Assembly (NCBI GenBank): GCA_001899235.1
Contig: MKVR01000020.1
Location: 71,208-121,057, forward strand
DNA length: 49,850 nt
From: Nitrosospira sp. 56-18
GTDB lineage: Bacteria; Pseudomonadota; Gammaproteobacteria; Burkholderiales; Nitrosomonadaceae
Direction of reading: 5' to 3'
Shown here: positions 8,403-47,932 of the stretch, in pieces
How the letters are laid out: each line of letters opens with the position of its first letter
Numbering within the stretch: the stretch's first letter is position 1
The notes under the pieces: model-generated
Told to the model about the DNA's origin: nothing
The model's database searches: none
The model's input: only the letters and a program-made list of their open reading frames with translations
Made by a program: the position numbers and the translations under genes

Positions 8403-8449
8403 TATGGCGCCCTGAACACGAATCGAACGTGTGACCTACCCCTTAGGAG
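8403..8449 (-). repeat. Left attachment repeat: 47-bp copy of the tRNA-Arg(CCU) 3' part
   Basis: These 47 bp are identical to 12992-13038 and correspond to the 3' part of tRNA-Arg(CCU), from the anticodon loop through the T arm to the CCA end, plus two flanking bases. The match ends abruptly at 8450. Such a duplication is the signature of site-specific integration into a tRNA gene, with the functional copy kept at the other end of the element. Confidence 0.9.
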
Positions 8450-12991: not shown

Positions 12992-13038
12992 TATGGCGCC
13001 CTGAACACGAATCGAACGTGTGACCTACCCCTTAGGAG
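12992..13038 (-). repeat. Right attachment repeat (within tRNA-Arg)
   Basis: This is identical over 47 bp to 8403-8449. It lies inside the intact tRNA-Arg gene, so this is the end at which the functional tRNA was preserved. Confidence 0.9.
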
Positions 13039-13069
13039 GGGGTTGCTCTATCCACTGAGCTACCAGGGC
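12994..13069 (-). tRNA. tRNA-Arg (anticodon CCU)
   Basis: The 76-nt minus-strand sequence folds as a complete tRNA. The 7-bp acceptor stem (GCCCTGG with TCAGGGC, one G-U pair) is followed by a D arm (TAGCTCAGTGGATAGAGC), the anticodon arm with loop CTCCTAA (anticodon CCT), a T arm with GTTCGATTC and an encoded CCA end with discriminator G. The CCU isoacceptor reads AGG codons and is a frequent integration target. The island at 8403-13038 uses its 3' part as attachment site. Confidence 0.96.
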
Positions 13070-16298: not shown

Positions 16299-16413
16299 CC
16301 TGAATCCGGTGGTTGACTGCTTTTTTTTGGTTTGGAACCATGATCCACAAAGATTTTCCGCGATGATCGACATTCGCCTGCGTGGTGAGTTCGCTACAAC
16401 TGCCGGATTCAGG
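16299..16413 (-). repeat. Family-2 repeat, copy C (best-preserved ends)
   Basis: The element is bounded by CCTGAATCCGGTGGTTG (16299-16315) and CAACTGCCGGATTCAGG (16397-16413), which are inverted repeats with 15 of 17 positions matching. Read on the minus strand it aligns with copies A and B. It lies between trxB and the smr gene, pointing the same way as both. Confidence 0.8.
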
Positions 16414-23672: not shown

Positions 23673-24305
23673 ATGCAAAAGAATAAAAGCAATGAAGAAA
23701 CACCCCTTACCAGCGAAAAAATCCAGCCGCTCGCTTACTTTATTTTCACGACCCGCTGGCTGCAGTTGCCGTTATATCTCGGACTCATACTCGCTCAATG
23801 CGTTTACGTCTATCACTTCTGGGTGGAATTGATCGATCTGATCGGCGCGGTGATGGGAAACCAGGCCGCCCTGCAGCACATACTGGATGCAGTCGCCATC
23901 GAAGGCGCGGTGCGGCCAACCAAAATCAACGAAACCACCATCATGCTGGTCGTGCTGGGCCTTATCGACGTGGTGATGATCTCGAACCTGCTTATCATGG
24001 TCATCATCGGCGGCTACGAAACCTTTGTGTCGCGCATGAACCTGGAAGGGCATCCCGATCAGCCCGAATGGCTGTCGCACGTCAACGCCTCCGTGCTGAA
24101 AGTCAAACTGGCCACCGCTATCATCGGTATTTCATCCATTCACTTGCTGAAGACTTTCATCAATGCAAGCGCATATGACGAAAAGACGATAATGGCACAG
24201 ACAGGCATTCATTTCGTTTTCCTGCTTTCCGCCATCGCCATCGCCATCAGCGATCGAATCATGTCCGGTACGAGCGCTCACCGGCAAACCCAGGGATTGC
24301 ATTAA
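23673..24305 (+). CDS. UPF0114 (YqhA-type) membrane protein
   Basis: The 210-residue protein begins with a short polar tail and FTTRWLQLPLYLGLILAQCVY, the conserved opening of the UPF0114/TIGR00645 family, followed by LIDVVMISNLLIMVIIGGYE, a second hallmark with the Gly-Gly-Tyr-Glu motif. Four membrane helices are predicted, including a C-terminal one (GIHFVFLLSAIAIAISD). The function is unknown; inner membrane location is expected. The stop codon TAA at 24303-24305 overlaps the border of a degraded family-1 repeat. Confidence 0.88.
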   Translation: MQKNKSNEETPLTSEKIQPLAYFIFTTRWLQLPLYLGLILAQCVYVYHFWVELIDLIGAVMGNQAALQHILDAVAIEGAVRPTKINETTIMLVVLGLIDVVMISNLLIMVIIGGYETFVSRMNLEGHPDQPEWLSHVNASVLKVKLATAIIGISSIHLLKTFINASAYDEKTIMAQTGIHFVFLLSAIAIAISDRIMSGTSAHRQTQGLH

Positions 24306-24373
24306 GAAGCAACTGAACAAGTCCTCGCCGTACGGCGGCTTTGCGTATGGGATGCCCTAAAGGCGGCGATGCT
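24305..24373 (+). repeat. Family-1 repeat, degraded third copy
   Basis: The sequence AGCAACTGAACAAGTCCTCG followed by GGCTTTGCGTATGGGATG aligns with the first 75 bp of the family-1 element at 47594 (CTGAACAAGTCTCCGC, then GACTTTGCGGGATGGGATG). Only this end is preserved, and similarity stops near 24373. The flanking TA forms the first two bases of the UPF0114 stop codon, the same situation as in the two full copies. A 12-bp palindrome CGCCGTACGGCG lies at 24326-24337. Confidence 0.6.
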
Positions 24374-30698: not shown

Positions 30699-31265
30699 AT
30701 GACCACAGACCCTGCGACAGAAGCGGAGGTGGACGATCGCCCGGTTTTGCTGATCGTTGACGATGACCTGACATTTTGCGCCGTGCTGGCGAAGGCGATG
30801 GGCAAGCGGGGATTCAATGTCACCTGCGCGCATACCGTCGAGCAGGCCACGGAATACGCCGAAGCCTGCATGCCGGAATATGCCGTGGTCGATCTGAGGC
30901 TGCCCGGAATTTCGGGGCTGGCGCTGGTCGAGAAGCTGAAGGCGCTGGACCCGGGCACCCGCATTGTCATGTTGACCGGGTACGCCAGTATCGCCACCGC
31001 CGTGGAGGCGATCAAGCTCGGTGCCACCCACTACCTCGCAAAGCCGGTGGATGTGGATGAGATTATGGCTGCTTTCGAACGAACGTCGGGGGATGCCGAG
31101 GTGCAGATCAGCGCTCATCCGCTGTCGGTGGGCAGGCTGGAATGGGAATATATCCAGCGCGTGCTGAATGAAAATAAGGGAAACATTTCCGTGACGGCAA
31201 GAATTCTCAATATGCATCGCCGCACGCTGCAGCGCAAGCTGACCAAGTATCCAGTCAAAAGCTAG
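30699..31265 (+). CDS. regA: Response regulator RegA/PrrA/ActR
   Basis: The 188-residue regulator has a receiver domain (VDDDLTFCAVL; phospho-acceptor Asp in VVDLRLPG; LTGYASIATAVEAIKLGATHYLAKPVD) and, after a linker, a C-terminal Fis-type helix-turn-helix, ISVTARILNMHRRTLQRKL, almost invariant in RegA/PrrA/ActR proteins. Phosphorylated RegA activates or represses redox-controlled promoters. It is separated from regB by two bases and followed by a 94-bp spacer and a family-1 repeat, beyond which ribD is convergent. In a nitrifier it is a plausible regulator of carbon fixation and respiration, which is inference. Confidence 0.94.
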   Translation: MTTDPATEAEVDDRPVLLIVDDDLTFCAVLAKAMGKRGFNVTCAHTVEQATEYAEACMPEYAVVDLRLPGISGLALVEKLKALDPGTRIVMLTGYASIATAVEAIKLGATHYLAKPVDVDEIMAAFERTSGDAEVQISAHPLSVGRLEWEYIQRVLNENKGNISVTARILNMHRRTLQRKLTKYPVKS

Positions 31266-31633
31266 CGCTTGTTAACACCTGTTTTCCCATCGTTGCTCGC
31301 CGCTTGCAGAGCCTGCTCCGCGACCGTCGCCGGCGCAAAACAAATGTTAACAGGTCTTAGGGAAACGCTGAACAAATCCTCGCTGAGCGCGTTGCTGGTA
31401 AAATCGGGATGATCATAAGGCGCGCGACGAAGGTCGTAGCCGGGACTACGATGCCAAGGAGCGCAACGCAGTGAGCGCCCGATTTTACCGCAACCCTTAT
31501 GGGGCGGGGTTTTGCGGGCGGTCTGCCTTGTCAGGCTCCTGGCGAAGGGGGTCAACCATTCGCGTCGTCGCCTTTCGCGCATCCCATCCCGCAAAGCCAC
31601 CGCCGCGCCAGCGGAGATTTATTCAGCGCTTCC
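31266..31633. other. Intergenic region regA-ribD (368 bp)
   Basis: The region holds no gene of its own. Two copies of the 8-bp palindrome TGTTAACA occur at 31270-31277 and 31345-31352. The rest (31360-31634) is a full family-1 repeat, which contains a short minus-strand open frame. Confidence 0.7.
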
Positions 31634-31634
31634 C
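31360..31634 (-). repeat. Family-1 repeat, full copy 1 (275 bp, MITE-like)
   Basis: The element has terminal inverted repeats: left GGGAAACGCTGAACAAATC, right (reverse complement) GGGAAGCGCTGAATAAATC. It is flanked on both sides by TA (31358-31359 and 31635-31636). It is about 85 to 90 percent similar by eye, over its whole length and in inverted orientation, to 47594-47867. Internal inverted repeats GGTAAAATCGGG and CCCGATTTTACC flank a GC-rich hairpin region. The right TA with the next base forms the ribD stop TAG on the minus strand. No transposase is encoded. Confidence 0.85.
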
Positions 31635-32752
31635 TAAGAGATTCCCGGCTTCTCAGGGCCGGCGGAAATACGGATATCCACCCCTATTGAACGGATATCG
31701 TGAATGATCAGCGCGCGCTTTTCCTGGAGAGTTGCCAGTTCCGGGAGTTCCACCATGCCGCGTGCCGCGTGTCCGATCAGGCAAGGGGCGAGGTAAATCA
31801 CCAGCTCATCCACCAGCCCGGCCTGCATGAGCGCGCCATTCAACCTGGGTCCCGCTTCGACCAGCAGCTCGTTTATCTCCAGGCCGGCAAGTGCCTGCAT
31901 CATTTTTCCGAGATCGACTTTCCCGTCCGTGCCGGGAAGCGGGATCACGTTCGCTCCCATGCCGCGCAGCACGGCGATTTTTTCTTCGTCCGCGCCGGCG
32001 GTAAAAATCAATGCCCGCCCCTCTCGTAGCACTCTGGAATCCAGGGGAATATGCAGGCCGCTGTCCAGAACAACCCGCAGAGGCTGCCTGGGTGTCTCCA
32101 CGTAACGGACGTTGAGCTCAGGGTTGTCTGCCAGCACGGTGCCGATGCCTGTGAGCACGGCGCAGGAGCGCGCGCGCAACCGATGGCCGTCACGCCGCGC
32201 CGGCTCGCTCGTTATCCACTGGCTGGCGCCGTTATTGAGGGCTGTCCTGCCGTCGAGGCTGGCGGCGATTTTCATCCGTACCCATGGGCGCTGCCGCGTC
32301 ATCCGCGAGACAAAACCTGCATTGAGCGCTTTTGCCTGCGTTTCCATCAAACCGGCAACGACCTCGATTCCCGCCTGCCGCAGCAACGCTGCGCCTTTGC
32401 CTGCCACCAGGGGATTGGGATCCTCCATGGCCATAATCACTCGCGTGATGCCGGCCGCTATCAGCGCCTCGGCGCAGGGAGGCGTTCTGCCATGATGGCT
32501 GCACGGCTCCAGGGTGACATAAGCGGCAGCGCCCCGTGCCGCGCGGCCTGCGGCGGCGAGCGCGTTGATTTCGGCATGAGGGCCGCCGGCGAACTGATGC
32601 CAGCCGCTGCCTGCCATGACGCCGTCACGCGCGATCACGCAGCCTACTCGCGGGTTGGGGCTGGTACTATACAAGCCTTTTTCAGCAAGCCGCAAGGCAC
32701 GAGCCATGCAGGCATGATCGTCCGGCGAAAACGGGGTGGAAGACTGGTTCAT
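31634..32752 (-). CDS. ribD: Bifunctional pyrimidine deaminase/reductase RibD
   Basis: RibD carries out two steps of riboflavin synthesis: deamination of the pyrimidine intermediate and reduction of its ribose. The 372-residue protein has the zinc deaminase domain at the N-terminus (PHAEINALAAAG with the catalytic His and Glu; PCSHHGRTPPC zinc cysteines) and the reductase domain from about residue 150 (KIAASLDGRTAL, ARSCAVLTGIGTVLADNP, LLVEAGPRLNGAL). The TAG stop is made of the TA at the family-1 repeat border plus the first base of the repeat. ribD is separated from ribE by the regBA pair; it lies 73 bp after nrdR. Confidence 0.97.
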   Translation of the reverse strand: MNQSSTPFSPDDHACMARALRLAEKGLYSTSPNPRVGCVIARDGVMAGSGWHQFAGGPHAEINALAAAGRAARGAAAYVTLEPCSHHGRTPPCAEALIAAGITRVIMAMEDPNPLVAGKGAALLRQAGIEVVAGLMETQAKALNAGFVSRMTRQRPWVRMKIAASLDGRTALNNGASQWITSEPARRDGHRLRARSCAVLTGIGTVLADNPELNVRYVETPRQPLRVVLDSGLHIPLDSRVLREGRALIFTAGADEEKIAVLRGMGANVIPLPGTDGKVDLGKMMQALAGLEINELLVEAGPRLNGALMQAGLVDELVIYLAPCLIGHAARGMVELPELATLQEKRALIIHDIRSIGVDIRISAGPEKPGIS

Positions 32753-46962: not shown

Positions 46963-47594
46963 ACTTGCCTGCATTGCTGGCAGCGGGAATCGCGACGCTC
47001 GGTCTTGATATTTCCCCTGAAGCCCGGCTTCGACTGCTCGAACATTTGGCGTTGGTGCAGAAGTGGAATCGCGTGCATAATCTTACCGCGATGCGCGACC
47101 CGGAGATGATGCTGACAGGCCACGTTCTCGACAGCCTTGCGGTTGTGCCTTGCATTACCGGTCCCCGTATCGTCGATATTGGCGCCGGTGGGGGTTTTCC
47201 CGGCATTCCCCTGGCGCTGTCGCACCCCGGCTGGCATGTTACCCTGGTCGAAAGCAGCCATAAAAAGGCTGCGTTTCTCCAGCAGGCGCGTATCGACCTG
47301 CAATTGAAGAACGTCGAGGTAGTGAATAGCCGTGCTGAAGAATTTCAGGCAATGGAGGGCTTCGATACGGTTATTTCCCGTGCTTTTGCCAGCTTGGCCG
47401 ACTTTGCCGGTCTGGCAGGACACCTCGCTCTTCACCCGGGTGGCAGGCTGGTGGCCATGAAAGGCGTGTATCCTCACGAGGAACTGCTCCACCTGCCGGC
47501 TCGTTTTGCTGTCGAGAGCATCCTGCCCATCACGGTTCCCGGTCTTGCGGCGGAACGGCATCTGGTGATAATCAAGGCGCCAGGGCTTTCGTAG
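46959..47594 (+). CDS. rsmG: 16S rRNA m7G527 methyltransferase RsmG (GidB)
   Basis: RsmG methylates G527 of 16S rRNA; loss gives low-level streptomycin resistance in other bacteria. The 211-residue protein has [19 protein letters not shown], the SAM-binding [30 protein letters not shown] and [17 protein letters not shown]. Its start overlaps mnmG (ATGA), so translation is coupled. The TAG stop at 47592-47594 is made of the TA at the border of a family-1 repeat plus the first G of the repeat; C-terminus otherwise has normal length. Confidence 0.97.
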
Positions 47595-47867
47595 GGCAGC
47601 CCTGAACAAGTCTCCGCTGGCGCGACGGGACTTTGCGGGATGGGATGCGCGAAAGGCGACGACGCGAATGGTTGATCCCCTTCGCTAGGAGCCTGGCAAG
47701 AAAGACCGCCCGCAAAGCCCTGTCCCATTCGGGTTGCGGTAAAATCGGGCGCTCATGGCGTTGCGCTCCTTGGCATCGTAGTCCGGGCTACGACCATTGT
47801 CGCGCGCCTTATGATCATCCCGATTTTACCAGCAACGCGCGTAGTGAGGACTTACTCAGGGCTTCCC
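47594..47867 (+). repeat. Family-1 repeat, full copy 2 (274 bp, MITE-like)
   Basis: The left end is GGGCAGCCCTGAACAAGTC and the right end (reverse complement) GGGAAGCCCTGAGTAAGTC. Flanking TA lies at 47592-47593 and 47868-47869. It is inverted relative to 31360-31634 and similar throughout. A frame of about 76 codons (MRDGMRERRRREW, then GCGKIGRSWRCAPWHRSPG) is open in both copies with conserved sequence; in this copy it continues in frame into parA. It fills most of the rsmG-parA gap. Confidence 0.85.
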
Positions 47868-47932
47868 TAGGATCGGAACAAGGCGTATTGCTTCAGTGTT
47901 CAGTATTGCAACAAGACCAGCGAGTGGGACAG

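Follow-up and report, generated by a model that had tools for sequence, protein, structure and literature searches.

A putative IS5-type MITE family of Nitrosospira with a YTAR target duplication and an excess of insertions at gene stops

IS5 of Escherichia coli is an autonomous element of about 1.2 kb, with an end that begins GGAAGG. Correia elements of Neisseria are small, non-autonomous and present in many copies, as is the repeat family of Nitrosospira sp. 56-18 presented here. REP/BIME are, like this family, intergenic palindromes near gene ends; they differ from it in sequence and, to our knowledge, are without terminal inverted repeats with target duplication.

In the available excerpts of the literature, YTAR (C/T-T-A-A/G) is given as the conserved duplication of IS5, the same 4-bp target motif as that of the Nitrosospira family (PMC10359306), and CTAG is cited for IS5 together with a report of an unusual 8-bp repeat (PMC10379815). 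For Correia-like small elements, among which the Correia elements of Neisseria are named, TA termini are described as the rule (excerpts of PMC2229807), whereas the Nitrosospira family has a 4-bp YTAR duplication. The closest described relative is MITEPsy1 of Pseudomonas syringae, which duplicates CTAG or YTAA and was caught transposing (excerpts of PMC3189936). Its left end, GGAAGGTCTGAAAAAGCC, is similar to that of the Nitrosospira MITE, GGAAGCGCTGAAYAAATC, the duplication is likewise of 4 nt and coding sequence is absent; the authors attribute the element to the IS5-family ISPsy2. MITEPsy1 differs in being 100 bp long with six copies in strain 1448A, whereas the Nitrosospira MITE measures 45-423 bp (mostly about 100-420 bp), is modular and has well over a hundred ends. 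In the same excerpts a stop-codon bias is not mentioned. No bias of MITEs to stop codons was found among the titles and abstract openings listed from the openly licensed literature, which is weak evidence of absence, and "stop codon" occurs 0 times in the main text of a MITE review (PMC10969869).

Repeat copies in the window and their target duplication

The window, that is, the whole stretch of 49,850 nucleotides that was analysed, is part of a 3.29-Mb genome in 54 contigs. It contains two full copies of the repeat, 89% identical to each other, and one remnant, and the features concerned are the following.

23673..24305, plus strand: UPF0114 gene (Pfam PF03350)
24302..24305: 4-bp flank TTAA, containing the UPF0114 stop TAA (24303-24305)
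24306..24372 (end approximate), plus strand: truncated, degenerate remnant of end A of the MITE family
31357..31360: 4-bp flank TTAG on the far side of the ribD copy, a degenerate target duplication
31361..31633, minus strand: MITE copy of 273 bp, GGAAGCGCTGAATAAATC...GATTTGTTCAGCGTTTCC, end A toward ribD
31634..31637: 4-bp flank CTAA on the gene side, equal to TTAG on the ribD strand and containing the ribD stop TAG (31636-31634)
31634..32638, minus strand: called part of ribD (Pfam RibD_C and TIGR00326); the ORF extends further upstream, 396 aa
46974..47594, plus strand: rsmG (TIGR00138, Pfam GidB)
47591..47594: 4-bp flank GTAG on the gene side, containing the rsmG stop TAG (47592-47594)
47595..47866, plus strand: MITE copy of 272 bp, end A toward rsmG
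47867..47870: 4-bp flank CTAG on the far side of the rsmG copy

Thirteen full copies were aligned and all end pairs were then tabulated, and the element proper reads GGAA...TTCC in both full copies. On the minus strand, ribD ends in ...ATC TCT TAG with the repeat immediately after it, and rsmG ends in ...TCG TAG immediately before the second full copy; that the repeat ends exactly at these two stops, as the preliminary description had it, is confirmed. The UPF0114 gene ends in ...CAT TAA, and a repeat-like stretch does follow directly; the third copy proposed there, however, reduces to one truncated, degenerate end of ~70 bp, with a 41-bp stretch at 83% identity (E=2e-5). Its best local alignment scores 96.5, and none of 300 base shuffles exceeded 77; its reverse complement scores 83 too, the element being palindromic, and a second end was not seen.

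In many copies of the genome the same four bases flank both sides, and the target duplication is therefore 4 bp long and reads YTAR. With patterns blind to the flank bases, 97 of 127 perfect-core ends have a YTAR flank, and in the flank-independent subset 25 of the 53 copies with two ends carry identical 4-bp flanks, compared with 16% expected when flanks of different copies are paired. All 25 identical pairs are YTAR (13 TTAA, 8 CTAG, 3 CTAA and 1 TTAG), and beyond this motif no strong flank consensus was observed among 129 YTAR ends. A TA-only duplication was rejected because the flanks match over four bases, which also sets the family apart from a Correia-type dinucleotide duplication. Neither full copy in the window has identical flanks (TTAG/CTAA at ribD and GTAG/CTAG at rsmG), and these represent decayed duplications. 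The four-base target also corrects the suggestion that the ribD stop is made of a TA and the first G of the element, with the GGG end supplying the third base: that base belongs to the host target, which is duplicated, and the whole TAR is host DNA.

From its ends and duplication, the repeat is classified as a MITE family of IS5 type, putatively non-coding and non-autonomous. By eye, the copies of the own genome are modular and fall into classes of ~106, 145-192, 273, 345 and 422 bp, which differ by hairpin-forming inner blocks; the blocks recur in varied combinations, which would fit recombination among copies with the ends kept constant. Read as RNA, the copy at ribD (31362-31634) folds on either strand into a terminal stem and two long arms (z -7.6 and -6.4). 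In several copies the two flanks read as each other's reverse complement and not as a direct repeat (TTAG...CTAA in three loci, TTGA...TCAA in one), the pattern that a change of the two outer C bases of CTAG to T would give.

Other repeats were also observed close to the copies and elsewhere in the window. The stretch 31262-31356, which separates the upstream gene (ending at 31265) from the MITE, has inverted ends of the TGTTAACA type, like the ~820-bp PF01609 elements in L031, L034 and L036, and is possibly another decayed mobile element. An apparent second repeat family (TAGCGAACTCACC...) is found at 2812-2855 and 16356-16399 of the window, downstream of ribD in L181, and in the left flank of L098, a MITE copy which appears to lie next to or inside a copy of this second family. 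Identical 47-nt copies lie 4.6 kb apart (8403-8449 and 12992-13038); the second is within a tRNA-Arg(CCT) gene (12994-13069), no tRNA gene was found at the first, and the two are possibly attachment sites of an integrated island.

Candidate transposase and distribution in relatives

An insertion sequence of a congener (L168:771-1929) is 1,159 bp long and has CTAG on both sides. Both of its ends match all 14 fixed positions of the end core perfectly, and this core, GGAANCNCTGAANAANTC, is common to the MITE and the insertion sequence at both ends, as an inverted repeat of IS5 type. The encoded transposase has 321 aa and scores 319.8 bits with the NCBIfam IS5-family model (cut-off 140); matches to it are present in six of the 23 genomes of the genus. 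This element thus shares ends and CTAG flanks with the MITE, and differs in the species and in that its transposase was not found in the genome of the window.

In the own draft genome there was no match to the L168 transposase or to PF05598; an autonomous insertion sequence with the same ends was found in the congener and not in this draft. Seven PF01609 matches exist, none of their loci having a convincing pair of MITE-type ends. Three of the five loci searched for inverted repeats (L031, L034 and L036) have ends of another, TTAACAC type, and the PF01609 transposases were rejected as drivers of the family. Since no matching transposase was found in the own genome, we infer from the shared ends that an enzyme of the L168 type would have moved the copies. 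An own-genome insertion sequence may be missing from the 54-contig draft, several contigs of which start at copies. Seven contigs have a MITE copy no further than about 500 bases from their start, and therefore the repeat probably breaks assemblies. Plasmid records had no match to it.

The repeat is present (E up to 1e-8) in 22 of the 23 genomes of the genus (own included); elsewhere in the family it was detected in 5 of 14 genomes, and in the order in 1 of 24. With the strict end pattern, 94 ends were counted in the own genome, 8 in the genome that follows and none in the remaining 21 of the genus. Of 52 elements taken from relatives, 15 carry the same 4-bp flank on both sides and 14 abut the stop of an ORF that is 80 codons or longer; this set comes without its own background, at least one of its loci is likely a duplicate, and one end entered it twice. 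One of these elements (L323) is bordered on each side by the end of an ORF.

At the three orthologous sites, the 500 bp that follow the stop were searched for end cores, three mismatches being allowed, and no clear copy was found at the ribD, rsmG or UPF0114 stops among 20-22 relatives of the genus. At ribD no core was found in 21 of 22 relatives, and the remaining one has, at a distance of 139 bp, a core with three mismatches. At UPF0114 none was found in 19 of 20, with a three-mismatch core 191 bp away in the other. The rsmG site was without core in 20 of 21 relatives; the last (L213) has an ATAA stop followed immediately by a core with three mismatches, which may be a relic or chance. These empty sites, which had been proposed as a check, give indirect support to a transposition of the MITE; with 60-73% protein identity for ribD and rsmG, however, the relatives are too far removed for the pre-insertion bases to be read from them. 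For UPF0114 the stop is TGA in 18 of 20 relatives, and therefore a change from TGA to TAA probably preceded the insertion at TTAA.

Insertions at gene stops

Ninety-two stretches around ends were taken, and 119 insertions were scored (59 two-ended and 60 one-ended) among the matches listed, 244 ends being counted with a TA-requiring pattern and 100 of 106 being listed with a flank-free one; chance may account for some of the end pairs that are short or contain mismatches. Genes were called by in-house codon and Markov models, in the same way for insertions and background. The background consists of the YTAR sites in the window and in 20 stretches of 15 kb, each placed at random on a different one of 20 contigs of known length out of the 54 (350 kb in total, 78% called coding). 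Its sites were read on both strands, while 60 of the 119 insertions were read on one flank, so that stops, and stops nearby, on the unseen side were missed. For 23 insertions no end could be found by flank-free patterns; these came from TA-requiring lists, repeat matches or looser matching, which partly favour TAR, and the tests were repeated on the flank-independent subset of 96. By another count, 23 of the 119 lack YTAR at every scored end (20 intergenic, 2 into a gene and 1 at a stop); these were left out of the odds ratios, as were two YTAR insertions running into a gene.

Thirty-four of the 119 insertions adjoin a gene stop (29 with a cruder gene caller; 24 of 96 in the flank-independent subset). 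A Pfam domain is present in 31 of these 34 genes and in none of the other three. They include the genes of IF-3, phenylalanyl-tRNA synthetase beta chain, SecA, acetolactate synthase small subunit, dephospho-CoA kinase and P-II protein. The YTAR insertions divide into 33 at stops, 61 intergenic and 2 into a gene, and the 788 background YTAR sites into 56, 409 and 323 (coding), respectively. Measured against non-coding YTAR sites, stops are over-represented 3-4-fold among the insertions, and the excess is real (33:61 vs 56:409, OR 3.95, p=3e-7). The odds ratio is 6.3 (p=9e-11) when the background is taken from the flanking stretches (39 sites at stops, 453 intergenic), 3.3 (p=1.3e-5) when stratified by tetramer and 3.1 (p=1.7e-4) in the flank-independent subset (23:54). 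Coding DNA is nearly free of the MITE (2 of 96 YTAR insertions vs 323 of 788 background sites). Among the tetramers, CTAG received 34 insertions per 60 non-coding background sites, TTAA 37 per 197 and CTAA or TTAG 25 per 208, the two insertions running into a gene being included.

The coincidence with stops noted in the preliminary description exceeds chance. That description had held that a majority of copies away from stops would speak against stop targeting, and such a majority was found in part: 85 of the 119 were not seen at a stop, with one flank scored in 60 of the 119, and the excess stays 3-4-fold. The same end, A, faces the gene in the three cases of the window, as described, but not genome-wide, where the 34 stop junctions have 11 times end A, 11 times end B and 12 times an untyped end.

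The proposed specificity for the TA of stop codons gives way to the four-base target. The stops used are YTAR in 32 of 34 cases, compared with 62 of 282 background gene stops (binomial p=3e-19), and in 23 of 24 cases of the flank-independent subset. TGA accounts for 133 of the 282 background stops and RTAR for 87, and each was used once, the RTAR case being rsmG, with CTAG as its other flank.

The use of YTAR sites falls with the distance from the stop. Per background YTAR site, the insertions are 33/56 at the stop, 17/46 at 1-50 bp past it, 14/88 at 51-200 bp, 30/275 further away or without a stop and 2/323 in genes. With two backgrounds, the stop compared with the next 1-50 bp gives OR 1.6 (p=0.22) or 1.9 (p=0.10), and 1.35 (p=0.56) in the flank-independent subset; compared with YTAR sites within 30-50 bp, the ratios of 1.35-2.2 are all non-significant. 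When sites up to 100 bp away are included the ratios are 2.1-2.9, and with sites up to 200 bp away 2.5-3.5 (p from 0.02 down to 6e-5); the flank-independent subset gives 1.7 (p=0.16) and 2.0 (p=0.04), respectively. The comparison with 1-200 bp is significant (OR 2.5, p=0.002; OR 3.5, p=6e-5, for the two backgrounds), as the gradient implies. A recognition of stop codons as such is not supported; a stop-sparing target is supported, and a small extra preference for stops over nearby YTAR sites is compatible with the ratios.

Origin and meaning of the stop excess

The stop excess is very probably explained by YTAR targeting combined with survival at harmless gene ends. A transposase of the IS5 family, cutting at YTAR and duplicating this motif, would mobilise the MITE in trans. 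The motif is degenerately self-reverse-complementary and holds a TAR stop codon on both strands. Where the target is formed by the last sense base and a TAG or TAA stop, the duplication would rebuild the stop on the gene side, and because either strand of the motif carries TAR and all four bases are duplicated, the protein would remain unchanged in either orientation of the element. The earlier idea that host genes survive the insertion is thus kept, since the target already holds the stop. Insertions inside genes would be lost by selection, and therefore survivors would accumulate at and just beyond the 3' ends of genes; about a quarter of them coincide with a stop. We infer that selection, and not target choice, makes the 3'-end bias. 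Against this explanation stand the lack of a transposase with MITE ends in the own 54-contig draft genome, the point estimates at stops, which stay above those of nearby YTAR sites, the imperfect duplications of both full window copies and the 8-bp IS5 duplication reported in excerpts of one paper (PMC10379815).

Alternatively, the element may seek gene ends, for instance through terminators, RNA polymerase pausing or supercoiling, with YTAR fixing the exact base only and stops being favoured beyond their harmlessness. The excess over all non-coding YTAR sites (OR 3.95), the fall of use over about 200 bp and the estimates at the stop above those of the next 50 bp would all agree with this, but selection predicts the same gradient, the near absence from genes shows strong selection or avoidance, and the difference between the stop and the following 50 bp is not significant. 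Selection against promoter damage would also predict a shortage of insertions between divergent genes, and no significant shortage was found among insertions away from stops (18 of 61 vs 146 of 383 background sites, p=0.25). An apparent one (18 of 94 vs 146 of 383, p=4e-4) was discarded, as it counted stop insertions on one side only; the lack of a significant shortage is a point against a simple harm filter and in favour of gene-end seeking. On balance, gene-end seeking is considered unlikely.

The strong folding of the ribD copy on both strands could also suggest that the element is kept at stops for a function there, such as a 3' hairpin stabilising the mRNA or ending transcription. Palindromic MITEs, however, fold by construction, a search of 31300-31700 against Rfam gave no match, and the orthologous sites in relatives do without the element; such a role seems highly improbable. 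Finally, a transposase recognising the TA of stops, or a GGG end supplying the third stop base, accounts for three of three cases in the window and for 34 of 119 in the genome, and is almost certainly wrong in view of a 4-bp duplication that includes the third stop base, the 85 of 119 copies not seen at a stop, the non-YTAR stops that make up 220 of 282 stops and 2 of the 34 used, and the finding of both ends facing genes.

Under YTAR targeting with survival at gene ends, the elements likely represent a new IS5-type MITE family with a target that happens to contain a stop codon. A bolder reading, tentative and rather doubtful, is that the YTAR of IS5-type elements is a built-in safe harbour with stop codons as lossless landing sites, the transposases being perhaps kept at a host-sparing target while also favouring gene ends to a modest degree. 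If that were true, convergent genes with stops overlapping in one CTAG could each keep their stop, and L323 may be such a case.

For Nitrosospira, the results describe an abundant, modular MITE family located at many gene ends. An element that appeared to seek stop codons is replaced by a simpler rule, one testable on any IS5-type element: where the target holds a stop on both strands and exactly that motif is duplicated, gene ends would become lossless landing sites.
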